A DNA stretch of 64,000 nucleotides. Origin: Ethanoligenens harbinense YUAN-3 (GTDB taxonomy: Bacteria; Bacillota; Clostridia; Oscillospirales; Ethanoligenentaceae). The notes beneath the pieces were generated by a model. The model ran no database searches. It saw only the letters and a program-made list of their open reading frames with translations, and had not been told where the DNA came from. Positions 6,743-62,566 of this stretch are shown piece by piece. A program made the position numbers and the translations under genes. Location: positions 2,555,501 to 2,619,500 of the forward strand of contig NC_014828.1 in assembly GCF_000178115.2 (NCBI RefSeq), written 5' to 3'. Positions within the stretch are counted from its first letter, which is position 1; each line of letters begins with the position of its first letter.

Positions 6743-6945
6743 TTTGCGCTCGCCCCCATTTCCGGATGCCAGGGTTTATCCAGTTCGGGATACAGGGTGC
6801 CGCGTTTAAGCGCGTGCACCGGTTCATAGATGTTTTCCAACTTCTGCATAGGCACATAGGCCATGGCCAGCGGCGTTCCCGGAGGGAACAGCGGGTCACC
6901 CATCGGCATGGGTCGGCTCTGCGCGTGAAAATGATCCGTTGACAC
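6739..6945 (-). CDS. cotJA: Spore coat associated protein CotJA
   Basis: A 68-residue proline-rich protein with the CotJA pattern: AMAYVPMQKLENIYEP followed by ALKRGTLYPELDKPW. It begins with GTG, supported by a GAAAGGAG binding site 8 bases upstream. First gene of the cotJABC operon; the three genes overlap or nearly touch. It marks the organism as an endospore former. Confidence 0.93.
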   Translation of the reverse strand: MSTDHFHAQSRPMPMGDPLFPPGTPLAMAYVPMQKLENIYEPVHALKRGTLYPELDKPWHPEMGASAK

Positions 6946-7087
6946 AATTATCGGCTCCTTTCAAATCAGACTCCACCACCAGCCTATGCCCTGTCCACGC
7001 GCGGGGTGAACAGGCTGCGGACCGGCCCGGCCGTTTTCGACAGAAAACGCGCATCCGACGGCAGACAACCGTCCGCTCTGCGCATGC

Positions 7088-7130
7088 AAAAACGCCGCGC
7101 ACGGTCCAGGACCGCACGCGGCGCTTTTTT
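7088..7130. terminator. Bidirectional stem-loop between cotJA and the immA-like gene
   Basis: An imperfect inverted repeat at 7093-7123 (CGCCGCG..CGGTCC against GGACCG..CGCGGCG, two central mismatches) has an A-run on the left and a T-run on the right. On the minus strand it ends the immA-like transcript. Confidence 0.7.
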
Positions 7131-36504: not shown

Positions 36505-36921
36505 TCAGTTACTTGGCGCGGGCGGGAATCGTTTTTTCCAGCCGCCGAAAGAAGTGATATCTTCTGCCGCCTCAGACGCAAACCCTTCACAGATAAAACC
36601 ACAGATTATCTCACCACTGTTTAGAATTACTTTTCCAATTCCAAGCGGGGAAGGAATTAGTTTTACAAAACCTCCAAAATATTGGATTGGCATTTCCCAA
36701 ATTTCCACCGAAATAGCACTTCCCCCTTTTTCAGTACGAATCAAACCGGGCTTCGGTGGAGTCATTGGAAGCAGATAAAGCCTGTAGATGGGTGCTGTTT
36801 TGTCTTCACGGACAAAGTGGGCATTGCGCTCTAACAGTTGGCTCTCTAACGGGTAACCGCGCATGTGCAAACCGCAGACAGCGATGGTTACCGTATCATT
36901 TTCATTGATCATAGCTTGCAT
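36505..36921 (-). CDS. Stand-alone allophanate hydrolase C-terminal domain protein
   Basis: 138 residues matching the C-terminal (AtzF-C) domain of allophanate hydrolase: VAVCGLHMRGYPLESQLLERNAHFV-type start, APIYRLYLLP, PPKPGLIR, IEVWEMP-like (SVEIWEMPIQYFGGFVKLIPSPLGIGKV) and the GFICEGFAS/DITSFGGWKKR ending. In most organisms this domain is fused after the amidase domain and takes part in the decarboxylation step. Here the amidase domain is encoded separately at 46660 without it. AAGGAGTG precedes the ATG. It is divergent from a MerR gene and has its own promoter. Confidence 0.85.
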   Translation of the reverse strand: MQAMINENDTVTIAVCGLHMRGYPLESQLLERNAHFVREDKTAPIYRLYLLPMTPPKPGLIRTEKGGSAISVEIWEMPIQYFGGFVKLIPSPLGIGKVILNSGEIICGFICEGFASEAAEDITSFGGWKKRFPPAPSN

Positions 36922-37018: not shown

Positions 37019-37849
37019 ATGCCACCTAAAATCATCATTGGTGAAATGGCCAGAATGCACGGAATTTCTACCCAGACGCTGCGTTACTATGACCGAATCA
37101 ATCTATTCAAGCCGTCTTATACCGATCAGGAAAACGGCTACCGGTATTATGGAATTGAGCAGTTCGCGCATCTGGAATCCATCCTGTTTTTAAAAGGTCT
37201 GGGCATGTCCTTGCAGGACATCAAAAAGTATTTTAAAAACCGGGATCTCAAATCCATGCTGGAGCTGATGGAAAACCGCCTGAGCCGGCTCGACGCAGAG
37301 GTTTTAAACCTGGAGATGAAACGAAAAAAAATCGCCTCCTTGTTTTCCACAATTCGCAATTATCAGAACCACGATGTGCTGGGAAAATGTCATCTTCAGA
37401 AAATGCCGGAACGACGTATCCTGTTTTTTCATTTTGGAGGCGGCGATATCGTTTCTGAACACGAGTTTGGCATCAAAAAACTGGAAAATGTATTGGAGAA
37501 TGTGGATGACCTCTATCTGAACCCATTTGGAACGGTTATTTCAAAGGACGCGCTGCAGACTAAATCATATGAGATATTTAAAGGAATCGCCATGGTTTTC
37601 GACGCGGATATTCCCAAGCGACCCGGTACATTGCCTATGCAAACCGGTTCTTATGCATGCATGGCTTTTGTAGGAACCTATAAGGAGGTTTCGGGCTATT
37701 GCGCGCAGTTGGTGGATTGGATCAATAAACAAAATTTAGAAATAATTGGGGACGGGATTATACTGGTCGTGACAGACAAGGCATATTCCGATTTTGAATA
37801 TGAATATGTCAGCGAAATTCAGGTTCCGGTTCGGAAAATAAGGACTTGA
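37019..37849 (+). CDS. MerR-family regulator with GyrI-like effector domain
   Basis: 276 residues. The winged helix-turn-helix covers residues 1-72 (IIIGEMARMHGISTQTLRYYDRINLFKPSYTD, ENGYRYYGIEQFAHLESILFLK). A dimerisation coiled coil follows, then a GyrI/BmrR-like ligand-binding domain (about 125-276). Such proteins bind small hydrophobic or cationic molecules and remodel promoters. ACAGGAGA supports the ATG at 37019. It sits between the divergent allophanate hydrolase domain and the PII/transporter/guanidine operon, so it is the likely local regulator. Effector unknown. Confidence 0.9.
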   Translation: MPPKIIIGEMARMHGISTQTLRYYDRINLFKPSYTDQENGYRYYGIEQFAHLESILFLKGLGMSLQDIKKYFKNRDLKSMLELMENRLSRLDAEVLNLEMKRKKIASLFSTIRNYQNHDVLGKCHLQKMPERRILFFHFGGGDIVSEHEFGIKKLENVLENVDDLYLNPFGTVISKDALQTKSYEIFKGIAMVFDADIPKRPGTLPMQTGSYACMAFVGTYKEVSGYCAQLVDWINKQNLEIIGDGIILVVTDKAYSDFEYEYVSEIQVPVRKIRT

Positions 37850-37931
37850 CATTATAGTTGTTATAAGGTTTAAACTGATCGTAACAAAGCAGCAAAGACG
37901 CTGGTTCGGTAGAATCAGTGTCTTATTTTAT
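37846..37931 (+). promoter_or_regulatory. Promoter, dyad and leader hairpin before the NifI genes
   Basis: TTGACA (37846-37851), a 17-bp spacer and TTTAAA (37869-37874). The spacer carries a dyad TTATA-N5-TATAA (37852-37866), where a MerR protein would bind. A leader hairpin AAGACGCTG (37895-37903) with CAGTGTCTT (37916-37924), followed by ATTTTATTAA, is terminator-like and directly precedes the ribosome binding site. Confidence 0.55.
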
Positions 37932-37950
37932 TAATGGGGTGATTGAATTG

Positions 37951-38274
37951 GTGATGATCGAAGCTTTTGTTCGACCGGAAAAAGCAGATGATATTTTGGC
38001 AAAGCTGAAGGATAAAGGGTTTGCAGCGGCGACAAGAATATCTGTTCTGGGACGCGGCAAACAAAAGGGACTAAAAGCTGTGGACGTGTATTACGACGAA
38101 CTACCCAAAGAATTGCTTATGCTGGTGGTACAGGACACGCAGGAGCAGCTGGCCGTCGACACGATTTTGCAAAGTGCCAAATCTAAGGGTGACGGCGCAT
38201 TCGGGGATGGCAAGATCTTCGTGACACCGGTTTCCAAAGCGTATACTGTCAGCAGCGGAAAAGCGGAATTATGA
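37951..38274 (+). CDS. PII signal protein, NifI1 type
   Basis: 107 residues. The pattern MIEAFVRPEK..DILAKLKDKGF, GRGKQKG, VYYDELPKELLMLVVQD and GDGKIFVTPVSKAYTV is that of NifI1 (GlnB-like) proteins. In methanogens and clostridia these bind ATP and 2-oxoglutarate and, with NifI2, inhibit nitrogenase. A GTG start is chosen because GGGGTGA lies 8 bases upstream; ATG 37954 is the alternative. No nitrogenase gene is nearby. It leads an operon-like set with NifI2 and a transporter, followed by guanidine catabolism genes, so a nitrogen-status control of that pathway is likely (inference). Confidence 0.85.
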   Translation: MMIEAFVRPEKADDILAKLKDKGFAAATRISVLGRGKQKGLKAVDVYYDELPKELLMLVVQDTQEQLAVDTILQSAKSKGDGAFGDGKIFVTPVSKAYTVSSGKAEL

Positions 38275-38305
38275 TACCCGGAAGATCGGAAAGGGACAGA
38301 ACGAA

Positions 38306-38662
38306 ATGAAAAAAGCGGTTGTAATCCTTCGGCCAAACATGTATACCCAAACCAAACGGGTGTTGGAACAGGAAGGTTTTTCTTCGTTCAGTGCGGCCAG
38401 TGTTCACGGTTGCGGAAAGAAAGCGATCCCCATGTCGGCGGCAGACAACAGTGTGGCATCGTCGGATAACACGGCACATCGCTTCGTTGCAAAAAAAATG
38501 CTGATTGTATATATACGGGATGAAGATGAAGAACCGTTCGTTCGGGCGATTTTTTCTGTCAACAGCACCGGGAACGCAGGGGATGGGAAAATCTTTATTA
38601 TTCCTGTTTCCCGCGTTGTCCGTATCCGAACCAATGAAACGGATGAAAACGCCTTGCTGTGA
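38306..38662 (+). CDS. PII signal protein, NifI2 type
   Basis: 118 residues. It starts KKAVVILRPNMYTQTKRVLEQEGF and ends GNAGDGKIFIIPVSRVVRIRTNE, as in NifI2 proteins. In nitrogenase control NifI1 and NifI2 assemble together and neither works alone. The T-loop region (GCGKKAIPMSAADNSVASSDNTAH) is long and diverged from standard NifI2, perhaps reflecting a different target. AAAGGGA precedes the ATG, 31 bases after nifI1. Confidence 0.8.
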   Translation: MKKAVVILRPNMYTQTKRVLEQEGFSSFSAASVHGCGKKAIPMSAADNSVASSDNTAHRFVAKKMLIVYIRDEDEEPFVRAIFSVNSTGNAGDGKIFIIPVSRVVRIRTNETDENALL

Positions 38663-38771: not shown

Positions 38772-39824
38772 ATGAAAAAGAAAGTCATAGCGGTCATAAC
38801 TGCTCTACTCATGCTGACGGCAATATTTTCAGGCTGCGCCAGCCAGTCGCCTAAATCTTCTGCCGGCCAAACCATTACCATTGGCACCTCCCCCTATCCG
38901 GCGTGGTATGTGTGGTATATCGCACAAGACGAAGGTCTTTTCAAAAAATATGGGCTGAATGTTACACTGAAGTATTTCCCGGTCTACAGCGACAGTCTGC
39001 AAGCATTCAACACCGGCAAGCTTGATATGCTGAATATCGCCACCTGTGACACGGTGGCACCCTATAATCAGGGCGTTGGATTCAAGATCGTTATGATCAA
39101 CGACAACTCCAACGGAGCCGACGGCCTGGTCGCAAAGAACCAGTACAAGACCATCAAAGACCTGAAAGGGAAAACCGTGGTGACCGAATACGGCACCATC
39201 GAGCATTTCTTCCTTCTTAAAGCGCTTGAATCGGCGGGCATGACTCAGGACGATGTCAAGTACACCAATATGACGGTAAACGACAGCGGAACGGCCATGC
39301 TGGCCGGAAAAGTGGATGCCGCCTGTGTTTGGGAACCGTCGCTCTCTATGGCGCTTGGCAGCAAAGACAACCACCTGCTGTACAGCTCGGCAGACACACC
39401 CGGCCTGATTCCGGATCTTCTTGTTGCCTCGAACAAATTGATCAAAAACAACCCGAACAACGTACAGAACCTCATCAATGTCTGGTACGATGCGCTCGAT
39501 TTCTACAACAAGAATCCGGATAAGGCCGCCGCGGATATGGCAAAACAAGCCAACGTGTCGACCACAGAAATGAAAAAAATCATGGCAGGTTCCAAACTTT
39601 TTTCCGTAAAAGACAACATAGAAGCCATTACCAAAAAGCAAAACAGTTATACCTATCTTCCCTATACTATCACCGAGACCGCAAAATTTCTGAAATCCGT
39701 CAAAATGGTGGACACAGTACCTTCCAATCCGCTGGATATGATCGATTCGACTTTTATCAAAGCTGCACAGAAAAAATACGGAGAGCAGACAGCGCCGGAT
39801 ACCAAAGCTTTGAATAACGGATAA
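38772..39824 (+). CDS. Substrate-binding lipoprotein of a nitrate/sulfonate/taurine-type ABC transporter (probably guanidine-related)
   Basis: 350 residues. Lipobox FSGC after a hydrophobic signal. The NMT1/SsuA-like fold is seen in TITIGTSPYPAWYVWYIAQDEGLFKKYGL, GKLDMLNIATCDTVA, LKGKTVVTEYGTIEHFFLLKAL and AGKVDAACVWEP. Transporters of this class are regular partners of guanidine/urea carboxylase loci. Guanidine or a related compound is the inferred substrate. AGGAG precedes the ATG. First of three transporter genes. Confidence 0.88.
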   Translation: MKKKVIAVITALLMLTAIFSGCASQSPKSSAGQTITIGTSPYPAWYVWYIAQDEGLFKKYGLNVTLKYFPVYSDSLQAFNTGKLDMLNIATCDTVAPYNQGVGFKIVMINDNSNGADGLVAKNQYKTIKDLKGKTVVTEYGTIEHFFLLKALESAGMTQDDVKYTNMTVNDSGTAMLAGKVDAACVWEPSLSMALGSKDNHLLYSSADTPGLIPDLLVASNKLIKNNPNNVQNLINVWYDALDFYNKNPDKAAADMAKQANVSTTEMKKIMAGSKLFSVKDNIEAITKKQNSYTYLPYTITETAKFLKSVKMVDTVPSNPLDMIDSTFIKAAQKKYGEQTAPDTKALNNG

Positions 39825-39837
39825 AGAGGGTGCTATT

Positions 39838-40629
39838 TTGAAAAGTATGTTCAGAATACGCGCAAAAATCAGCCGAAAGCTCTATTATACGCTGGCGGTT
39901 GGCGTATTTGCAGTGGTATTTCTGGTCTGGACGATTCTGGCCGGAAGCGGCCTCGTCAGCAATATTTTCCTGCCGTCTCCCCTCAAAGTGTTTGCTTATC
40001 TTGTCAATGCCTTTGCAACCGGAAGCATCTGGGGCGACATCGGTATCAGCAGTTACCGCATTTTCATGGGCTTCCTCGTAGCGGTGATCATCGGCGTGCC
40101 ACTCGGCATTCTGGCCGGCACATTTCATTTTGCGGAAGCGCTGATTCAGCCTTTTTCCGAATTTCTCCGCTATATGCCGGTGCCGGCTTTTGTGCCGTTG
40201 ATTATGGTCTGGTGCGGCATTGGGGAGACGGCCAAAATCGCGGTCATTTTCCTTGGCACATTGTTTCAGCTCATCCCCATGATGGCCGACAACGTGCGCG
40301 CGGTGCCGGACGATCTGCTCGGTGCGGCCTATACGCTGGGAGGCGGACGCAGTCTGGTGTTGCGCCGGGTCATCCTTCCGGCCATTGCTCCCAGCACGAT
40401 GAACACACTGCGCATCATGCTCGGCTGGGCGTGGACGTATCTGACCGTGGCGGAACTGGTGGCAGCCAATTCCGGCCTTGGTTACAACATTCTGAAAGCA
40501 CAGCGCTTTTTACGGACAGACGCCATCTTCGGCGGCATCCTGATTATCGGGGTTTTGGGGCTTTTGTGTGACCGGGCGTTCGTACTGGCCGGCAAAAAGC
40601 TGTTCCCGTGGGCGGAGGGGGATCGGTAA
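39838..40629 (+). CDS. ABC transporter permease (SsuC/TauC type)
   Basis: 263 residues, six membrane helices. The coupling loop DDLLGAAYTLGGGRSLVLRRVILPAIAPSTMNTLR and PSPLKVFAYL near the N-terminus are characteristic. A TTG start at 39838 is supported by AGAGGGTG at the proper distance; ATG 39847 is an alternative. Its stop overlaps the ATPase start (TAATG). Confidence 0.9.
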   Translation: MKSMFRIRAKISRKLYYTLAVGVFAVVFLVWTILAGSGLVSNIFLPSPLKVFAYLVNAFATGSIWGDIGISSYRIFMGFLVAVIIGVPLGILAGTFHFAEALIQPFSEFLRYMPVPAFVPLIMVWCGIGETAKIAVIFLGTLFQLIPMMADNVRAVPDDLLGAAYTLGGGRSLVLRRVILPAIAPSTMNTLRIMLGWAWTYLTVAELVAANSGLGYNILKAQRFLRTDAIFGGILIIGVLGLLCDRAFVLAGKKLFPWAEGDR

Positions 40630-41468
40630 TGCTGAAATTGCGCAAAGAGAAAAAGAGCGCCACCCGTTCCCAGCCGGTGGACGCCCGGGTGGGCACCAGC
40701 AAAATCGTAGTGCAAAACCTGCAAAAGACCTACCAGACCAAAAAAGGCGAGGTTGTTGCCATTCAAGACGCCAGCGCGGAAATCCTCGAAAATGAGTTTG
40801 TCTGCATCGTTGGACCGTCCGGTTGCGGAAAGTCCACGCTTTTGCGCATCCTGGCCGGCCTGGATGAAGCGACCGGGGGCGAAACTTCCGTGGATGACCA
40901 GCCCATCACCGGGCCGGGTGCGGACAGAGGCATGGTCTTTCAGACTTACACGCTGTTTCCGTGGCTGACGGTGGAGGAAAATATCTGCTTTGGATTGAAA
41001 ATCAAAAAAATGCCCAAAAAGCAGATGGAGGAGATTGTCGGCCGGTATCTGAAAGTCATCGGTCTGGAGGCATTTCGCAAAAGTTTTCCCCGCGAGTTGT
41101 CCGGCGGGATGAAACAGCGTGTTGCCATTGCGCGCGCGCTGGCCAACAGCCCGAAAGTCCTGCTGATGGACGAACCGTTCGGTGCGCTGGATGCGCAGAC
41201 AAAAGCGCAGATGCAGCTTTTGATGCGAGAAATCTGGCAGGTAGAAAAGCCGACGGTGGTTTTCATCACCCATGATATTGAGGAAGCGGTTTTCTTGGCC
41301 AACCGTGTTTATGTGATGAGCAACCGGCCCAGCCGCATGGTGGCCAACATCCCGATTTTGCTTCCATATAACAGGGAATTGAATTTAAAAGAACAGTCCG
41401 CGTTTCTGCATTACCGCCACCAGATCACCGGATTGCTGCATCAGCAGACACCGGGATCGGAGGCGTAG
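40629..41468 (+). CDS. ABC transporter ATPase (SsuB/TauB type)
   Basis: 279 residues. Walker A GPSGCGKST, Q-loop FQTYTLFPWL, signature LSGGMKQRVAIARAL, Walker B VLLMDEPFGALD and switch FITHDIEEA are intact. An N-terminal extension of about 30 basic residues precedes the ABC domain. GGAGGGGG lies upstream, and the start overlaps the permease stop. The riboswitch begins about 25 bases after its stop codon. Confidence 0.93.
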   Translation: MLKLRKEKKSATRSQPVDARVGTSKIVVQNLQKTYQTKKGEVVAIQDASAEILENEFVCIVGPSGCGKSTLLRILAGLDEATGGETSVDDQPITGPGADRGMVFQTYTLFPWLTVEENICFGLKIKKMPKKQMEEIVGRYLKVIGLEAFRKSFPRELSGGMKQRVAIARALANSPKVLLMDEPFGALDAQTKAQMQLLMREIWQVEKPTVVFITHDIEEAVFLANRVYVMSNRPSRMVANIPILLPYNRELNLKEQSAFLHYRHQITGLLHQQTPGSEA

Positions 41469-41493
41469 CGGGCAAATCGAATATCTATATCTG

Positions 41494-41580
41494 TTTTCTA
41501 GGGTTCCGTGGAAGAAGACTTCCAGTCTGGTCCGAGAGAAAACGCACATCGCGCAGGTGGTGTGTCACGGAGGGAGAAAA
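41494..41580 (+). ncRNA. Guanidine-I (ykkC) riboswitch aptamer
   Basis: The conserved blocks occur in order: CTAGGGTTCCG (from 41498), a variable hairpin, GTCTGGTCCGAGAG (41525-41538), the ACGCAC region, and GTGTCACGGAGGGAGAAAA at the 3' end. These are the hallmark of the guanidine-I class, which senses free guanidinium. A terminator follows at once, so guanidine binding should permit read-through into the deiminase and carboxylase genes. It lies inside the cluster, after the transporter genes. Confidence 0.92.
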
Positions 41581-41582
41581 GC

Positions 41583-41622
41583 CCGGGAGGACAGAAATTT
41601 TTCTGAACCTCCCGGCTTTTTT
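41583..41622 (+). terminator. Expression-platform terminator of the guanidine-I riboswitch
   Basis: CCGGGAGG pairs with CCTCCCGG around an inner CAGAAA/TTTCTG stem, followed by CTTTTTTA. It starts right at the aptamer 3' end, as expected for a genetic-ON switch. Confidence 0.85.
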
Positions 41623-41653: not shown

Positions 41654-42370
41654 ATGAATACGATTTGGAAAAACACATTCAGAGCCGGTGAAAAATGGTC
41701 CGGGCTGATCGGCAGACATAAGCTGCTTCGCTTTACGGCAATGGAAGCCGGCGCCAACCTTGCGCTCCTGCTTTACAACCGGCTGGAGCTGAACGAAAAA
41801 TACAATATGCCGGATACATTGAAGGCCCAGCACACCGCACACCTGACCGCGGGCAACGCACTTTTCAGCGACAAGGGGCGCGTGCTGGCATCCATTGTGG
41901 AAGACAGCATCGGCTGGCATGACACCATCGGCGGCATCACCACCAGAGAGAGCACCGACCAAAAGTATGGAAAAACGGATTATCAGACGCTGCGCAACGA
42001 CTGGCTGCGCAACGGTTACGACAATTTCATGATGGAGCTGGAGTGCAACGGCCTTGGCCCGCGTGATTTTGTCCCGCCGGTCAATCTGTTTTCAAAAATC
42101 CGGTGTGATAAAGACGGGCATATGCACGCCGACCCGGAAAACTGTCCCAAAGGGGCGACCGTCACGCTGCGCACGGAGATGGATGTGCTGCTGGTACTTT
42201 CCAACACGCCGAATCCGCTTGACCCCCGCAAAGACTACCCGGCGGTTCCGGTGAAGATGGAGGTTCTGCCCGCGGCCCCGGAGGATTCTCTGGACCCGTG
42301 CATGAACAGCATGCCGGAAGTGCGGCGCGCTTATGAGAATACGTGGGATTATTACACCCTGTTGGGCTGA
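41654..42370 (+). CDS. cgdA: DUF1989 protein, carboxyguanidine deiminase subunit (urea carboxylase-associated)
   Basis: 238 residues. The DUF1989 core shows RFTAMEAGANLALLLYN, DSIGWHDTIGGITTRE and PRDFVPPVNLFSKI. Proteins of this family next to carboxylase and allophanate hydrolase, once called urea carboxylase-associated proteins, form a two-subunit deiminase converting carboxyguanidine to allophanate. An AAAAGGAG binding site precedes the ATG. First gene after the riboswitch; the next gene starts 14 bases later. Assigning A or B subunit is from gene order and length. Confidence 0.85.
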   Translation: MNTIWKNTFRAGEKWSGLIGRHKLLRFTAMEAGANLALLLYNRLELNEKYNMPDTLKAQHTAHLTAGNALFSDKGRVLASIVEDSIGWHDTIGGITTRESTDQKYGKTDYQTLRNDWLRNGYDNFMMELECNGLGPRDFVPPVNLFSKIRCDKDGHMHADPENCPKGATVTLRTEMDVLLVLSNTPNPLDPRKDYPAVPVKMEVLPAAPEDSLDPCMNSMPEVRRAYENTWDYYTLLG

Positions 42371-42384
42371 GGGAGGAAAAAGCA

Positions 42385-43038
42385 ATGAGCACAGCATTTA
42401 AACCTTGTGAAAGCAAACGTCAGGAGAAGGATGCGGTCTTCAACCAGATCGTTCCCGCAGGCGCCGGGTTGATGCATGTCGTGAAAAAAGGACAGGTTTT
42501 GCGCATCACGGATGTGGAGGGCAACCAGGCTGCCGACACTATGTTTTACGATACGGAAAATCCGGAAGACCATTACAGTGCTACCGCCACAATAACCGGG
42601 CAGGAAAATATTTACCTGACTACCGGCACCGTATTGCGTACGGAGTCCGGAAAACCGTTGCTCACCATCGTGGCCGATACCTGCGGGCAGCATGACACAC
42701 TGGGCGGCTCCTGCTCCGCGCAGAGCAATACCATCCGCTATTCGCGTGACATCCGGTATATGCACAACTGCCGCGATACCTTTATGCTGCAAATGGCGAA
42801 ATTCGACGGGAAATATGCAAAGCGCGATCTGGCGCCCAATATCAATTTCTTCATGAATGTGCCGGTCACGGAAGACGGCGGGCTGGAATTTGCGGACGGT
42901 GTCTCCGGCCCCGGACGTTATGTGGAAATGCGCGCCGAGCGGGACGCCACGCTTTTGCTGAGCTGCTGCCCGCAGTTGAATAACCCTTGCAATGCCTACA
43001 ATCCGACTCCGCTGCGCGTGCTGGTCTGGGATGAATGA
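42385..43038 (+). CDS. cgdB: DUF1989 protein, second carboxyguanidine deiminase subunit
   Basis: 217 residues, paralogous to its upstream neighbour (shared core DTCGQHDTLGGSCS and ITDVEGNQAADTMFY). It has several cysteines and histidines (HNCRDTFMLQ, LLSCCPQLNNPCN) that could bind metal. It would form the heteromeric deiminase with the preceding protein. GGGAGGAAA supports the start at 42385. Confidence 0.85.
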   Translation: MSTAFKPCESKRQEKDAVFNQIVPAGAGLMHVVKKGQVLRITDVEGNQAADTMFYDTENPEDHYSATATITGQENIYLTTGTVLRTESGKPLLTIVADTCGQHDTLGGSCSAQSNTIRYSRDIRYMHNCRDTFMLQMAKFDGKYAKRDLAPNINFFMNVPVTEDGGLEFADGVSGPGRYVEMRAERDATLLLSCCPQLNNPCNAYNPTPLRVLVWDE

Positions 43039-43050
43039 GGAGTTGTTCCT

Positions 43051-46000
43051 ATGTTTGAAAAAGTACTGATTGCAAACCGGGGCGCGATTGCCTGCCGTAT
43101 CGAGCGCACGCTGAAAAAGATGGGAATCCGCTCGGTGGCGGTTTACACCAAGGCGGATCAGGACAGCCTGCATGTTTTTCATGCGGATGAAACCGTCTGT
43201 ATCGGCGACGGCCCGGCGAGCGAAAGTTATTTGAATGCGGAAAAAATACTGCAAACCGCTTTGCAGACGGGCGCGCAGGCCATTCATCCCGGTTATGGTT
43301 TCCTAAGCGAAAATGCAGATTTTGCGCGCAGATGCGCAGAAAACGGGATTGCTTTTATCGGCCCGACACCGGAACAGATCGAGCTGTTTGGCCTCAAGCA
43401 TTCGGCCCGCGCGCTGGCAAAAAAAGCCGGCGTTCCACTTCCGCCGGGCACCGGGTTGCTAAAAGATGCCGCACAGGCCGTCGAAAGCGCGGCGCGCATA
43501 GGGTATCCGGTGATGCTCAAAAGCACGGCTGGCGGCGGCGGTATCGGGATGCGCGTCTGTTCCAATGAAACGGAACTGCACGCCGCGTTTGAGTCCGTGC
43601 GTCATCTGGCGGCTGCTAATTTCGGAAACAGCGGCATTTTTCTGGAAAAATATGTTCCGCATGCCAGGCATATCGAGGTTCAGATTTTCGGAAGTGCATC
43701 CGGCGAAGTGGTCGCTATTGGCGAGCGCGACTGCTCGGTGCAGCGCCGCAACCAGAAAGTGATGGAAGAAACACCCGCACCGGATCTTCCGCAGGCGGTC
43801 CGTGAAGACATGCATGCGTCGGCTGTGCGCTTTGCCCGGATGGCGCAGTACCGCAGCGCGGGCACGGTGGAGTACCTGTATGATAAGGATGAAAAGACTT
43901 ATTATTTTCTGGAGGTCAATACCCGCCTTCAAGTTGAACACGGCGTCACCGAGGAAGTGTATGGCATCGACCTGGTGGAATGGATGGTGCTGGAGGCGGC
44001 TGGAGAGATCGGCACGCTTGCGCCACGGGTTGGTCGGCCGAAAGGGCACAGCATACAGGCGCGCATCTATGCCGAAGACAGCAGCGCGGGCTTCCTGCCC
44101 TGCGCCGGTCATGTAGACGGCGTGTATTTCTCGAAAGAAGCGCGCATTGAAACCTGGCTGCAAAATAATGCCGAAGTGACCACACTGTATGACCCGATGC
44201 TTGCCAAAATCATCACCTATGGTCAAAACCGGAAAGAAGCGCGCGCCAAACTGGAAAAGGCGCTGGATGAATCGCGCATTTACGGTGTGACCAGCAACCG
44301 TGCCTATTTGGCGGCGTTTATCCGCCGGGATGATTACCGAAATGGGAATCTTTCCACCCATATGCTGGATGGGTTTGCTCCGGAGGAGCACGCGCTGGAA
44401 GTTTTGGACGGTGGCGTGCAAAGCATGGTGCAGGACTACCCGGGCCGCACAGGCTATTGGGACGTGGGTGTGCCGCCGAGCGGCGCGATGGATATGTGGT
44501 CGTTTCGCGCGGGCAATCGGATACTCGGCAATGCGGAAGGCGCCCCGGGTATCGAGATGACCCTGCGCGGCGGAAAGTATCGGTTCCGCGGTGCGGCGGC
44601 CTTTTGTCTGGCCGGCGCGGATATGCATGCCGAACTGGACGGTGTGCCGGTCGCACCGTATACTGCCGTGGCGGCAAAGACCGGACAAGTGCTTTCTTTC
44701 GGGGAATGCCGGCTCGGCATGCGCGCCTATCTCCTGCTCAAGGGCGGACTGGACATGCCGCGTATCCTCGGAAGCGCGTCTACCTTTACGCTGGGCGTAT
44801 TTGGCGGCTACAACGGGCGCACCCTGCAACCGGGCGACCTGCTTGCCATCCGAAAAGCAGACGGCGATGAGATGCCCCGTCCTGTCCGGGTGACACAGCC
44901 TCTCACGCACCAATGGACGCTCGGCGTGATTTCCGGACCGCACTGCACCACGGAGTTTTTAAAAGAAGACTATCTGAAACAGCTGACGGACACGGCATGG
45001 GAGGTGCACTTTAACAGTTCCCGCACCGGCGTGCGGCTGATCGGTCCCGCGCCGGAATGGACACGGGCGGACGGGGGTGAAGCCGGTCTGCATCCCTCAA
45101 ATATCCACGACACGCCGTATGCGCTCGGTGCGCTGGATATGACCGGCGACATGCCCATTCTTCTGGGCCCGGATGGCCCAAGCCTCGGCGGCTTTGTTTG
45201 CCCGGTCACGGTCGCAACGGCGGAACTCTGGAAAATCGGCCAGATGCACCCGGGGGATACGGTAAAGTTTCAGATCGTTGCACCGGAAGAAGCAGAACAG
45301 ATGCGGCAGAAACAGGAACAGGCGTTTGCGTCCGCGGGTGCGGCCAATGCGCTTGCTCCGGCAGAATTGCCGTTGAAACATGCGCTGCCGTCGCCGGATG
45401 TCCCTATCCTCTATACTGCCGGAAAACAGCGTGACAAAGTGGTGTTTCGCTGCTCCGGCGACCAGAATGTGCTGGTTGAGTTTGGAGAAATGGAATTGGA
45501 TCTGCGTCTGCGCTTTAAAGCGCATTTGCTTATGCGGGCGATTAAGGAAGACGGCCGCATTCCAGTGGTTGATCTCACTCCCGGCATCCGCTCGCTTCAG
45601 GTACATTTTGACCCGGATCGAATGAAAATGAAGCGGGTCTGCGAACAGATTACGCGCATGATTGCGGAACTGCCTTCACTGGAAACGGCCAGAATTCCTT
45701 CTCGCGTGGTGGAACTGCCGATTTCGTGGAATGATCCGGCTGTGCGTCTCGCCATGAAACGCTATCAGCAGGGTGTTCGCCCGGACGCGCCCTGGTGCCC
45801 GGATAATATCGAATTTATCCGGCGTATCAACGGGCTGCAAAGCATTCAAGACGTGTATGACATCATTTTTAACGCGACCTATCTGGTGATGGGGTTGGGC
45901 GACGTTTATCTCGGCGCACCGGTCGCGGTGCCGCTGGACCCGCGCCATCGGCTGGTCACCACAAAATATAACCCCGCGCGCATTTGGACACCGGAAAATG

Positions 46001-46647
46001 CCGTGGGCATCGGCGGTGCGTACATGTGCGTTTATGGTGTGGAGGGTCCCGGCGGCTACCAGCTTTTTGGCCGCACTGTGCAGATGTGGAACCGCATGCA
46101 CGAAACTCCCTGTTTTGAAAAAGACCGCCCGTGGCTGCTGCGGTTCTTTGACCAAATAAAATTTTACCCGGTGGAGCCGGAGAAGCTGCTCGAATACCGT
46201 GAAGCATTCCTGCGCGGGCGGTTCAATGTAAAAATCACTGATACGACCTTCGACCTTGGCGGCTATCTGCGTTATCTTGACTCCATTGAGGGCGTTTCCG
46301 CTGTTGCCAAGCAGCGCCAGCAGACTGCGTTTGAAGCGGAGCGAGAGCGCTGGAAGAAAAACGGTTTGGATGAATTCATTTCGGAACAGCCGGAGATCCC
46401 GGAGGAGGACGAAACGCTGCCCCATGGCGCCGAACCTCTGAACGCCAAGATGGCAGGTAGTATTTGGAAAATATTAGTTAACGAAGGTGACCGGGTCGAA
46501 GCAGGACAGACGCTTGTCGTGATGGAAAGCATGAAGATGGAATTTGAACAAAAGGCTCCTGCCACCGGCAAAGTCGGCAAAATCTTTGTTCACCCCGGTG
46601 ATATCGTTCGAAATGGGCATGCTCTTTTGTATATCCAGACGGCGTAA
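43051..46647 (+). CDS. Biotin-dependent urea/guanidine carboxylase
   Basis: 1198 residues, cytoplasmic. Residues 1-445 are a biotin carboxylase (ATP-grasp loop KSTAGGGGIGMRV, EVNTRLQVEHGVTEE). Next come the KipA-like (about 450-740) and KipI-like (about 790-1000) carboxyltransferase halves, then a BCCP domain with ESMKME, biotin on Lys1162. The full domain set carboxylates urea to allophanate, or guanidine to carboxyguanidine. The guanidine-I riboswitch and two DUF1989 genes argue for guanidine as substrate. AGGAG lies upstream. I did not check substrate-specificity residues. Confidence 0.92.
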   Translation: MFEKVLIANRGAIACRIERTLKKMGIRSVAVYTKADQDSLHVFHADETVCIGDGPASESYLNAEKILQTALQTGAQAIHPGYGFLSENADFARRCAENGIAFIGPTPEQIELFGLKHSARALAKKAGVPLPPGTGLLKDAAQAVESAARIGYPVMLKSTAGGGGIGMRVCSNETELHAAFESVRHLAAANFGNSGIFLEKYVPHARHIEVQIFGSASGEVVAIGERDCSVQRRNQKVMEETPAPDLPQAVREDMHASAVRFARMAQYRSAGTVEYLYDKDEKTYYFLEVNTRLQVEHGVTEEVYGIDLVEWMVLEAAGEIGTLAPRVGRPKGHSIQARIYAEDSSAGFLPCAGHVDGVYFSKEARIETWLQNNAEVTTLYDPMLAKIITYGQNRKEARAKLEKALDESRIYGVTSNRAYLAAFIRRDDYRNGNLSTHMLDGFAPEEHALEVLDGGVQSMVQDYPGRTGYWDVGVPPSGAMDMWSFRAGNRILGNAEGAPGIEMTLRGGKYRFRGAAAFCLAGADMHAELDGVPVAPYTAVAAKTGQVLSFGECRLGMRAYLLLKGGLDMPRILGSASTFTLGVFGGYNGRTLQPGDLLAIRKADGDEMPRPVRVTQPLTHQWTLGVISGPHCTTEFLKEDYLKQLTDTAWEVHFNSSRTGVRLIGPAPEWTRADGGEAGLHPSNIHDTPYALGALDMTGDMPILLGPDGPSLGGFVCPVTVATAELWKIGQMHPGDTVKFQIVAPEEAEQMRQKQEQAFASAGAANALAPAELPLKHALPSPDVPILYTAGKQRDKVVFRCSGDQNVLVEFGEMELDLRLRFKAHLLMRAIKEDGRIPVVDLTPGIRSLQVHFDPDRMKMKRVCEQITRMIAELPSLETARIPSRVVELPISWNDPAVRLAMKRYQQGVRPDAPWCPDNIEFIRRINGLQSIQDVYDIIFNATYLVMGLGDVYLGAPVAVPLDPRHRLVTTKYNPARIWTPENAVGIGGAYMCVYGVEGPGGYQLFGRTVQMWNRMHETPCFEKDRPWLLRFFDQIKFYPVEPEKLLEYREAFLRGRFNVKITDTTFDLGGYLRYLDSIEGVSAVAKQRQQTAFEAERERWKKNGLDEFISEQPEIPEEDETLPHGAEPLNAKMAGSIWKILVNEGDRVEAGQTLVVMESMKMEFEQKAPATGKVGKIFVHPGDIVRNGHALLYIQTA

Positions 46648-46659
46648 GGAGGGAATTTT

Positions 46660-47994
46660 ATGGAACAGGTGCCGGAAAAAATGACTGTGGCGGGGCTGCG
46701 GCAGGCATATCGCACCAAAACATTGACACCGCGCAGGGTACTGGACAAAGTGCTGTCGCGTGCCCGCCGTTATGCTGCAAAACATATTTTCATTTCAGCG
46801 CCGGAAGAGGCAAAGCTGGCGGCATATCTGGGCAGACTGGAGCAGATGAATTTCGACAGTCACCCGCTTTGGGGCATTCCCTTTGTGGTAAAAGACAACA
46901 TTGATGTCGAGGGGTTTACAACGACCGCCGCCTGCCCCGATTATGCCTATATTCCCAAGCAGAGTGCCGCGGTGGTGCAGCGGCTGGTCAATGCGGGTGC
47001 CGTTCCGGTCGGAAAAGCCAATCTTGACCAGTTCGCTACCGGTCTGGTAGGAACGCGCAGTCCTTATGGAGCGGTGCACAATGCGTGGAGGGACGAACTC
47101 ATCAGCGGCGGTTCGTCGTCCGGCTCCGCCGTTTCGGCCGCGCTGGGTATCTGTGCGTTTTCTTTGGGAACAGATACGGCCGGTTCCGGCCGCGTGCCGG
47201 CCGCCCTGAACGGATTATTCGGCTTTAAGCCGAGCTGCGGCGCATGGCCGATTAAAGGGGTGGTGCCTGCCTGTGCCAGCATTGACTGCGTGACGGTTTT
47301 TGCCCATACCATGGGCGATTGCTTGGCAGTGGATGACGTTGCGCGTGGTTGTCAGGCGAACGACCCATGGTCGAAAGATCTGCCGCGCAAGATGGCGGCC
47401 GCACCCCAAACCGTGTATATTTCGGATAAGCCTCCGGTGTTTTTCGGCCCGTTTGCACAGGAATATGAAGCGGCATGGAAAAACGCGCTGAAGATGGTTT
47501 CCAACGCGGGATTTGCCGTAAAAAAAACGGCGGTGTCCCTGTACGAAGAGGCGGCGTCCATTTTGTATGGCGGGCCATGGGTGGCGGAGCGCTGGGCGGA
47601 TCTCGGCGACTTCGTGGGAAGTCATCCCGGCAAGGTATTTCCGGTCACGGAAAAGATTCTGCGCAGCGGGGAAAAACCGACGGCGGCTTCGCTGTTTCAT
47701 GCAATCCACCGGCTTCAGGAAATAAAGCGTTCTGTTCAAGAGTTGTTGGCCGATGCGGTGTTGTTGATGCCGACGGCAGGCGGAACATGGACGATCCGCG
47801 ACGTGGAAGCCGATCCGGTGGAAACCAACACACAGATGGGTGCCTTTACCAACCACTGCAATCTGTTGGATCTGTGTGCGTGCAGTTACCCGGTTGCCAT
47901 GGCTGCCGACAATCTGCCGTTTGGTATAACGGCGTTTGCCCTTTCAGGCGGAGAAGGACTCCTGTCTTCCTTTTCAGAACGCCTTTTTTCGTAA
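46660..47994 (+). CDS. atzF: Allophanate hydrolase, amidase domain only
   Basis: 444 residues of the amidase-signature family. The Ser-cisSer-Lys triad is visible: Lys78 in PFVVKDNID, the GGSSSGS loop near 151-156, and nucleophile Ser176 in DTAGSGR. It turns allophanate into ammonia and CO2 at the end of the guanidine or urea route. Usual allophanate hydrolases have about 600 residues with a C-terminal domain; here the protein ends after the amidase domain. The missing domain is encoded at 36505. AAGGAGGG precedes the ATG, 12 bases after the carboxylase. Confidence 0.9.
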   Translation: MEQVPEKMTVAGLRQAYRTKTLTPRRVLDKVLSRARRYAAKHIFISAPEEAKLAAYLGRLEQMNFDSHPLWGIPFVVKDNIDVEGFTTTAACPDYAYIPKQSAAVVQRLVNAGAVPVGKANLDQFATGLVGTRSPYGAVHNAWRDELISGGSSSGSAVSAALGICAFSLGTDTAGSGRVPAALNGLFGFKPSCGAWPIKGVVPACASIDCVTVFAHTMGDCLAVDDVARGCQANDPWSKDLPRKMAAAPQTVYISDKPPVFFGPFAQEYEAAWKNALKMVSNAGFAVKKTAVSLYEEAASILYGGPWVAERWADLGDFVGSHPGKVFPVTEKILRSGEKPTAASLFHAIHRLQEIKRSVQELLADAVLLMPTAGGTWTIRDVEADPVETNTQMGAFTNHCNLLDLCACSYPVAMAADNLPFGITAFALSGGEGLLSSFSERLFS

Positions 47995-62246: not shown

Positions 62247-62566
62247 ACGATAGATTCAACTTCCTAATCTTCTGCCTACTGAATAGTAAGCCGAAACGGG
62301 ACTTTGGTCCTGTCTGCCGGGAATGGCCGCCCGGCACTGAGGATGGCAGGCTGCTGTTATCAAAATTTGGGTGCCGATGACAGCGCTGGACGGGTCCCCC
62401 TCCGTTCCACGCGCGAGGAGCTTGCGGTTAAATGCGCCGGTGCAGCCCAGCTTGTGGAATATGTCCACTAAGCCCCCAAGTGCGACAAATTGTCGCACTT
62501 GGGGGTAAAAATCTAAAGACCAGCTTTTTCAGCAACTGCGACAATAAAAGATGGGAGGATGTGTAC
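62247..62566. other. Gap holding a 33-bp palindrome
   Basis: No gene seen in these 320 bases. The last 100 contain the palindrome at 62473-62505 and a half-site at 62535-62544. Confidence 0.5.
62473..62505. repeat. 33-bp palindrome containing TGCGACAA-N-TTGTCGCA
   Basis: Arms CCCCCAAGTGCGACAA (62473-62488) and TTGTCGCACTTGGGGG (62490-62505) are perfect complements around one base. The same core returns at 63645-63667. An ACTGCGACAA half-site lies at 62535-62544. Either a protein-binding operator or a strong RNA hairpin; without a T-run it is not a typical terminator. Confidence 0.85.

Follow-up and report, generated by a model that had tools for sequence, protein, structure and literature searches.

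A NifI1/NifI2-type PII pair adjoining a putative guanidine importer in Ethanoligenens harbinense and other Clostridia

The guanidine locus of Ethanoligenens harbinense

We analyzed a 64,000-nucleotide stretch of the Ethanoligenens harbinense YUAN-3 genome (hereafter the window, to which all coordinates refer, with strand given as + or −) that encodes, in this order, a MerR regulator, NifI1, NifI2, the substrate-binding protein (SBP), permease and ATPase of an importer, a guanidine-I riboswitch, UAAP1, UAAP2, a carboxylase and an allophanate hydrolase. The MerR regulator (37019..37849, +) carries a GyrI-like domain (PF13411, 56.5 bits; PF06445, 28.1 bits). The NifI1-type PII gene (37951..38274, +) has a GTG start in a frame that opens at 37918, an ATG at 37954 being also possible, and is followed on the same strand, after a spacing of 31 bp, by the NifI2-type PII gene (38306..38662, +). 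Both reading frames are open and intact, and both products match the Pfam P-II model (65.1 bits for NifI1 and 63.1 bits for NifI2, cut-off 25), with no NCBIfam model scoring above its cut-off for either protein. Together with their position in the NifI clades of the trees described below, these data bear out the original prediction of an intact and adjacent NifI1/NifI2 pair.

The importer downstream of the pair comprises an SBP of the NMT1/SsuA family (38772..39824, +; PF09084, 85.7 bits; TIGR01728 above cut-off), a BPD_transp_1 permease (39838..40629, +; PF00528, 82 bits) and an ATPase of NitT/TauT type (40608..41468, +; PF00005, 112.7 bits), the last of which scores 218 bits against the nitrate ATPase model ntrCD, under its cut-off of 292. 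The guanidine-I riboswitch aptamer (41487..41591, +; RF00442, 89 bits) lies between the importer genes and those encoding the two carboxyguanidine deiminase subunits, UAAP1 (41654..42370, +; TIGR03425, 281.7 bits) and UAAP2 (42385..43038, +; TIGR03424, 302.1 bits; frame opening at 42343). These are followed by the urea/guanidine carboxylase (43051..46647, +; TIGR02712, 1727.9 bits), which includes a biotin carrier domain (Biotin_lipoyl, 54.5 bits), and by an allophanate hydrolase of 444 aa consisting of the amidase part only (46660..47994, +; NF006043, 512 bits, cut-off 487; TIGR02713, 464 bits, under its cut-off of 511). Profile matches thus verify each element of the context initially described for the pair, that is, an ABC transporter, a riboswitch, a deiminase, a carboxylase and an allophanate hydrolase. 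Judging from the position of its genes, the probable substrate of the importer is guanidine.

The allophanate hydrolase is split in the window, its C-terminal domain AH_C being encoded by a separate, divergent gene (36505..36921, −; PF21986, 158.6 bits). By eye, a short AH_C-like ORF is also seen in divergent orientation at another locus (L064, 3871-4290) and 3′ of the carboxylase in L063. A type II hammerhead ribozyme was detected elsewhere in the window (62289-62355, +; RF02276, 48.3 bits).

Family assignment and ligand residues of the PII pair

A tree of PII proteins was built with 77 rows and only 122 retained columns, omitting X-containing sequences and the degenerate L145_10454 row. The window NifI1 falls within the NifI1 clade (100/99; 100/98 in a second tree) and the window NifI2 within the NifI2 clade (100/98; 100/97 in the second tree). 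Assignment to ordinary GlnB/GlnK was rejected on the basis of these trees and of T-loops of 12 (NifI1) and 21 (NifI2) residues, versus about 16. The phylogenetic check put forward with the original prediction hence places both proteins with NifI1/NifI2 and apart from GlnB/GlnK, and the window genes are, by sequence, a genuine NifI1/NifI2-type pair. The best solved relative of both proteins is PDB 9p1x (chain H for NifI1, 88 bits; chain G for NifI2, 65 bits), a structure that also includes a nitrogenase alpha chain, and not the PotN structure 7o4x. The AlphaFold2 model of NifI2 (pLDDT 81.9) has a PII fold, with the 50 best Foldseek matches listed being PII/GlnK-type chains; the NifI1 model is poor (pLDDT 65.8).

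Using the residue numbering of Aquifex GlnB and counting T-loop length between positions 41 and 58, the alignment reveals that NifI1 has a T-loop of 12 residues, keeps Q39 and K58 and carries T101 and S103 in place of two C-loop arginines, while NifI2 has a T-loop of 21 residues, K instead of Q39 and I instead of G41, and keeps K58, R101 and R103. The T-loop of the second protein, singled out as unusual in the original prediction, is real and belongs to the NifI2 type, and its 21 residues are fewer than the 24-34 of tabulated nitrogenase-linked NifI2 proteins. Across the 11 non-redundant pair loci described below, every NifI1 retains Q39, G41 and K58 and has T101/S103, and every NifI2 retains K58, R101 and R103; Q39 is missing from NifI2 in 10 of 11 loci (exception L072), as is G41 (10 of 11, exception G527). 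At nif-type loci, Q39 is present in 41 of 43 NifI1-like and 12 of 39 NifI2-like proteins. That the second protein lacks Gln39 specifically at guanidine loci was ruled out, as 27 of 39 nif-type NifI2-like proteins also lack it, four of these 27 aligning poorly at position 39; the Q39 division of NifI1 and NifI2, found in many nif-type pairs, is instead a family trait.

In PII proteins, the pocket for ATP and 2-oxoglutarate lies at a subunit interface, lined on one side by the T and B loops and on the other by the C loop of the adjacent subunit. Under this geometry, the division of T/B-loop and C-loop residues between the two proteins predicts a complete site only at a NifI1-NifI2 contact. The ligand residues therefore agree with a shared site, and NifI1 and NifI2 probably form a heteromer with a composite binding site.

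Relation to nitrogenase

To our knowledge, NifI pairs have been described so far only as nitrogenase off-switches. P-II is matched ten times in the host genome (G000; 3.01 Mb in one contig), once only weakly, and these matches include two further tandem PII pairs. These reside in nitrogenase operons outside the window, one of V-type (L009, at C1:2.48 Mb; VNFD, 922 bits) and the other of Mo-type (L010, at C1:1.70 Mb; nifD, 651 bits against a cut-off of 653.55, with the subfamily model TIGR01862 passed). The window pair is not located between nifH and nifD and precedes an ABC importer, which identifies it as a NifI homologue in a new context and not as a nitrogenase NifI. It shares with the NifI1/NifI2 pairs of nitrogenase operons (Methanococcus maripaludis; 9p1x) the tandem arrangement of the genes, the short T-loop and Thr for Arg101 in NifI1 and the long T-loop in NifI2. 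It differs from them in standing beside an ABC importer instead of nifH/nifD, in its shorter NifI2 T-loop and in that importer-linked pairs occur also in genomes without a nitrogenase gene above cut-off.

In the trees, the neighbours of both window proteins are NifI rows mostly of Mo-type operons (18 rows, 100/98, for NifI1; 18 rows, 97/93, for NifI2), where "mostly" denotes class by grouping, operon typing having been done for L009 and L010 only; L053, which carries the same class label as L010, clusters with V-type rows. The importer-linked NifI2 proteins constitute a single clade (12 rows, 100/98; 13 rows, 100/99, once L207 is added), with importer-linked NifI1 rows clustering at weaker support (94/91). 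A profile built from 12 importer-linked NifI2 proteins gives 167-177 bits for the importer loci that went into it and no more than 126 bits elsewhere in 391 class and 398 phylum genomes, two samples that overlap in some genomes. Among the lower-ranked loci, all 41 inspected (L159-L181, L187-L204) are nif-type, and L182-L185, further down the list, are Amt-linked or without marker. The importer-linked NifI2 form thus appears to be a restricted subfamily.

Affinity to the NifI of Mo-type nitrogenase operons would be expected if the window pair were a spare NifI set with nitrogenase as its true target, coupling guanidine use with nitrogen fixation. Nitrogenase alpha (TIGR01862) is above cut-off in 7 of 14 genomes searched, and 8 of the 11 pair genomes, the window's included, contain a nitrogenase alpha gene above cut-off. 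Nonetheless, we find this explanation very improbable. Three pair genomes, all MAGs of unstated completeness, have no nitrogenase alpha above cut-off: TIGR01862 returns no match in G1003 (L132) or G1006 (L141), and only a distant one in G1005 (L137; 169 bits versus a cut-off of 486). Moreover, the inspected nitrogenase operons mostly have pairs of their own, and the importer-linked NifI2 proteins sit in a separate clade.

Recurrence of the pair at guanidine loci

UAAP2 is rare, scoring above the curated cut-off in 2 of 245 order, 4 of 391 class and 3 of 398 phylum genomes, with the window genome counted each time. At the UAAP2 locus, four of the six other genomes (G008, G527, G566 and G972) encode a PII pair; of the remaining two, G291 has a single PII there and G934 has no PII match genome-wide. 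A broader survey covered the 80 top-ranking loci out of at least 536 from a UAAP2 alignment search, ordered by similarity to the window UAAP2; ABC genes were scored as present at phmmer >250 versus the window SBP or permease. Among these best 80, the 60 Bacilli loci comprise 56 with a carboxylase ORF, 16 with ABC genes and none with PII, so that Bacilli run the same enzymes and related importers with no PII at the locus and the control is dispensable for the pathway. The 15 loci from Clostridia include eight with both the pair and ABC genes, three with a single PII and no importer-type ABC genes, and four with neither, one of them on a 5 kb contig. PII is found in two of four Negativicutes loci (L125 and L144), the other two being PII-free 5 kb contigs, and the single Cytophagia locus is PII-free. 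Absence carries little weight on the contigs of about 5 kb (L112, L129 and L139). In flanks of about 10 kb, the clostridial loci L124, L136 and L142 have neither PII nor an NMT1/SsuA-type importer.

After merging duplicates (L065 = G008, L133 = G566, L206 = L072), the survey of other genomes called for by the original prediction yields a NifI pair at 11 non-redundant guanidine-carboxylase loci: the window, G008/L065, G527, G566/L133 (Clostridium tyrobutyricum), G972, L066 (Desulfosporosinus), L072 (Clostridium sp. LS), L132, L135 (Ruminiclostridium cellobioparum), L137 and L141. This recurrence rules out a pair unique to the Ethanoligenens genome.

Contact between the pair and the importer

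In all 11 pair loci the second PII gene stops 2-109 bp upstream of an importer gene, which is the SBP in 10 and the permease in L132. The surroundings of this pair-importer block vary. It stands before UAAP1 in the window, L059, L064, L066 and L072, between UAAP and carboxylase in L061 and L062, ahead of carboxylase and hydrolase in L135, where UAAP comes last, after the allophanate hydrolase in L132 and L141, and on the opposite strand in L137, giving five gene arrangements with a constant pair-importer contact. More generally, PII genes in the class often adjoin a partner gene; 24 of 28 PII loci (best-scoring PII per genome, 28 of a 69-genome sample) are fused to or adjoin amt. In a tree of importers, the 12 PII-linked importers lie on one branch (100/100) together with two Paenibacillus importers that have neither PII nor the ATPase segment described below. 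Since the pair-bearing importers form one branch, the 11 loci do not represent 11 independent events and the linkage may be inherited, as if the pair had simply been carried along with a nitrogen-uptake island and had no specific role. That the two genes are mere neighbours of the importer is nevertheless hardly credible in view of the same contact in five arrangements, of two intact proteins with complementary ligand residues and of a second PII family at guanidine loci of the APC type.

A regulatory pair with a specific role could also act on the guanidine carboxylase, for instance through its biotin carrier domain. PMC5080355 describes such an interaction between GlnB and the acetyl-CoA carboxylase carrier protein BCCP, and at six further loci a single GlnK-like PII gene is found right after the allophanate hydrolase, near the carboxylase. 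The maps fit this alternative less well, and we deem it unlikely: across the 11 loci the pair always adjoins the importer and not always the carboxylase, same-clade pairs occur at L145 and L207, where a carboxylase gene was not seen within the stretch fetched, and the carboxylase-bearing loci of Bacilli do without PII. The original prediction had left open gating of uptake or of the carboxylase; linkage to the importer in 11 of 11 loci, and also at L145 and L207, favours the importer as the target.

The importer ATPases contain a candidate PII-docking site, an N-terminal segment before the ATPase core (40677..40706, +; ATPase residues 24-33 in the window) with the pattern h-[DE]-[AV]-x-h-[AGS]-[NSTR]-[ST]-x-[IL]. 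In a comparison where the pattern was built from the very sequences scored, the segment is present in 11 of 11 ATPases of pair loci, 12 ATPases from guanidine loci without PII lack it, and no match occurs within residues 1-60 of any of 2090 background ORFs. It is also present in the L207 ATPase and missing from those of L145 and L205.

Expression signals

A candidate MerR-type promoter, TTGACA-N19-TAAACT (37846..37876, +), was identified by eye upstream of NifI1, and the 19-bp spacing is common to the window, L059, L064 and L066 (TTGACA-N19-TATAAT-like, by eye). A spacer of 19 bp is a hallmark of MerR-activated promoters. The promoter is followed by a putative leader switch (37890..37932, +), in which a small ANTAR-target-like hairpin with hexaloop AAAGAC overlaps an intrinsic terminator. 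The region 37860-37960 has a folding z of -3.49, and the leader pattern occurs once in the window against 0.04 occurrences expected. The element GCAAAGNNGC with overlapping terminator is repeated at nitrogen loci, amounting to 13 elements in the window, L059, L064, L066, L072, L137, L207, L205, L060 (two), L134, L146 and L155. As in ANTAR targets, each of the 13 elements, the window's included, has a short-stemmed hairpin, overlapping the terminator, whose hexaloop carries A1 and G4. PMC3369931 describes two hairpins in ANTAR targets, whereas there is one here; a second upstream hexaloop hairpin is absent from the window, and among the 13 elements weak candidates appear in L059 and L072 only. 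The only ANTAR match of the genome sits directly after a glutamine synthetase gene.

These signals invite the explanation that the target of the pair is not the importer but transcription or a different partner, such as the MerR regulator, the ANTAR antiterminator or glutamine synthetase. In other bacteria, the partners of PII proteins include soluble regulators, a MerR gene adjoins the pair in four loci (with relatives of the window gene at L059/L065, L064 and L066), and an ANTAR-target-like leader lies upstream of the pair in seven. Yet a MerR relative was not seen in the other seven loci (the upstream region of L135 being hardly covered), while the importer is there in all 11, and we judge this explanation quite improbable.

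The riboswitch also lies between importer and enzyme genes in L059, L064, L066 and L072. Being downstream of the importer genes, it would control the enzymes only. A tie between pair and riboswitch was ruled out, as only five of the 11 pair loci (the window, L059, L064, L066 and L072) have a riboswitch at gathering score. Expression of the locus would be layered: the importer genes would answer to a MerR-type promoter and a leader of antitermination type, and the enzyme genes to the guanidine riboswitch.

Pairs beyond the carboxylase and other PII families

A second pair in the genome of L064 (G972), at L145, lies 13 bp before permease, ATPase and SBP genes. Downstream lie genes for a ureohydrolase, which scores 182 bits against the agmatinase model (cut-off 174), and for urease, with the alpha subunit at 1040 bits and the other subunits identified by eye; no guanidine riboswitch reaches gathering score at L145, which may encode a guanidinase pathway. 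A very degenerate PII-like protein is also encoded inside this ureohydrolase-urease locus, near L145 10454. At L207 a pair stands 18 bp before permease and ATPase genes, with a class III aminotransferase, an Fe-alcohol dehydrogenase and an arginase-family enzyme nearby. The L145 and L207 pairs fall in the importer-linked clades. A further pair is encoded at L205 (7044-7713), in a genome where TIGR01862 finds no nitrogenase alpha. It ends 79 bp upstream of the genes for another NMT1-type importer, which are accompanied by genes for an aminotransferase, an Fe-alcohol dehydrogenase and TauE; its NifI2 groups weakly with nitrogenase-operon NifI2 (85/78), suggesting that it may be a separate recruitment.

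The six guanidine loci with a GlnK-like PII directly after the allophanate hydrolase (L060/G291, L122, L125, L134, L143 and L144) have no NMT1/SsuA-type ABC importer. The next gene encodes an APC permease in L060, L122, L134 and L143, and L125 contains an additional GlnK-like PII reading frame. In the PII tree the proteins of these loci are set apart as a clade of their own (100/100) within the Amt-linked GlnK proteins, pointing to a parallel recruitment at six guanidine loci, before an APC permease in four. APC permeases are proposed as guanidine importers in comammox bacteria in PMC11410670. A relative of these PIIs (100/99) precedes an APC permease at L208, with ornithine cyclodeaminase and FAD oxidase genes alongside; at L148 of C. 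tyrobutyricum, five such genes, 44-73% identical, are found together with Pot-type ABC genes, and there the PII has PotN (7o4x) as its closest solved structure. The swap of APC for Pot-type transporter with a swap of PII suggests that PII type tracks transporter type, an idea that rests on this one locus pair (L208/L148) and against which, as a general rule, stand the Pot-type ABC genes of the L124 guanidine locus, which have no PII.

PotN is a lactobacillus PII linked to a polyamine transporter. The window pair resembles it in its apparent dedication to a transporter, and differs in that PotN is a single protein of another PII branch with another importer type, as opposed to a pair with a NitT/TauT-type importer. 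In the E. harbinense genome, a single PII (L013, G000:C1:608000-622000; 6777-7127) with 7o4x as best solved relative precedes Pot-type ABC genes and a putrescine aminotransferase. Regulators of LuxR/GerE type, alike in their N-terminal parts, are encoded beside this locus and the guanidine loci L060, L061, L062 and L136, identified with Pfam for L061 and L013 and by eye for L060, L062 and L136.

Proposed gating of guanidine import

The pair directly precedes the importer in this and related bacteria, which makes it likely that it shuts the pump at sufficient nitrogen. We consider it probable that a NifI pair has been recruited from nitrogenase to gate guanidine import, with the block reversed by 2-oxoglutarate and ATP. 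What the sequences show is the placement of the proteins with NifI1/NifI2, the linkage to the importer, its recurrence and its presence in genomes without nitrogenase above cut-off; from them we further infer the substrate of the importer, the heteromer, its composite site, binding to the ATPase and the direction of the 2-oxoglutarate effect. When nitrogen is plentiful and 2-oxoglutarate is low, the NifI1/NifI2 heteromer would bind the guanidine importer, most likely at its ATPase subunit, and uptake would stop; as 2-oxoglutarate and ATP rise, the pair would release the importer and uptake would restart. The sensing site is probably shared, with NifI1 contributing the 2-oxoglutarate/Mg-ATP pocket (Q39, K58) and NifI2 the two C-loop arginines.

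GlnK blocks uptake through AmtB directly, and the block is reversed by 2-oxoglutarate and ATP. In that system, too, the PII gene adjoins its transporter gene, but a single GlnK acts on a channel and there is no ATPase target. According to PMC6603209, NrtC, NrtD and UrtE, which are ATPases of ABC importers of nitrogen compounds, are bound by the PII protein of Synechocystis. The likeness would lie in control of such importers via the ATPase, and the difference in that one general PII takes the place of a NifI pair dedicated to one importer. The same paper describes UrtE binding as apparently independent of the T-loop, so the cyanobacterial mechanism is not simply transferable. PII control of ABC importers is hence already known in general, and what would be new is a NifI pair at a guanidine importer. 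In a search mostly confined to literature outside subscription, including the accessible portions of PMC12186494, PMC11410670 and PMC12930504, none of the titles and abstract openings listed reported a link between guanidine and a PII or NifI protein.

More tentatively, a separate NifI branch in Clostridia and relatives, no longer bound to nitrogenase, may provide dedicated gates for organic-nitrogen importers of NitT/TauT type, docking on the conserved N-terminal segment of the ATPase, with GlnK-like PII recruited in parallel to guanidine APC permeases and the kind of PII following the kind of transporter rather than the degradation pathway. The gated substrates would then be guanidine, probably other guanidino compounds and perhaps amines.

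The riboswitch reports guanidine only and cannot supply a layer of nitrogen status. If guanidine import is gated as we propose, NifI pairs would gain a second target, and the importer would offer a simpler system for the study of 2-oxoglutarate sensing by a heteromer. It would also explain how guanidine uptake and carboxylation, which are costly in ATP, are avoided when nitrogen is plentiful.
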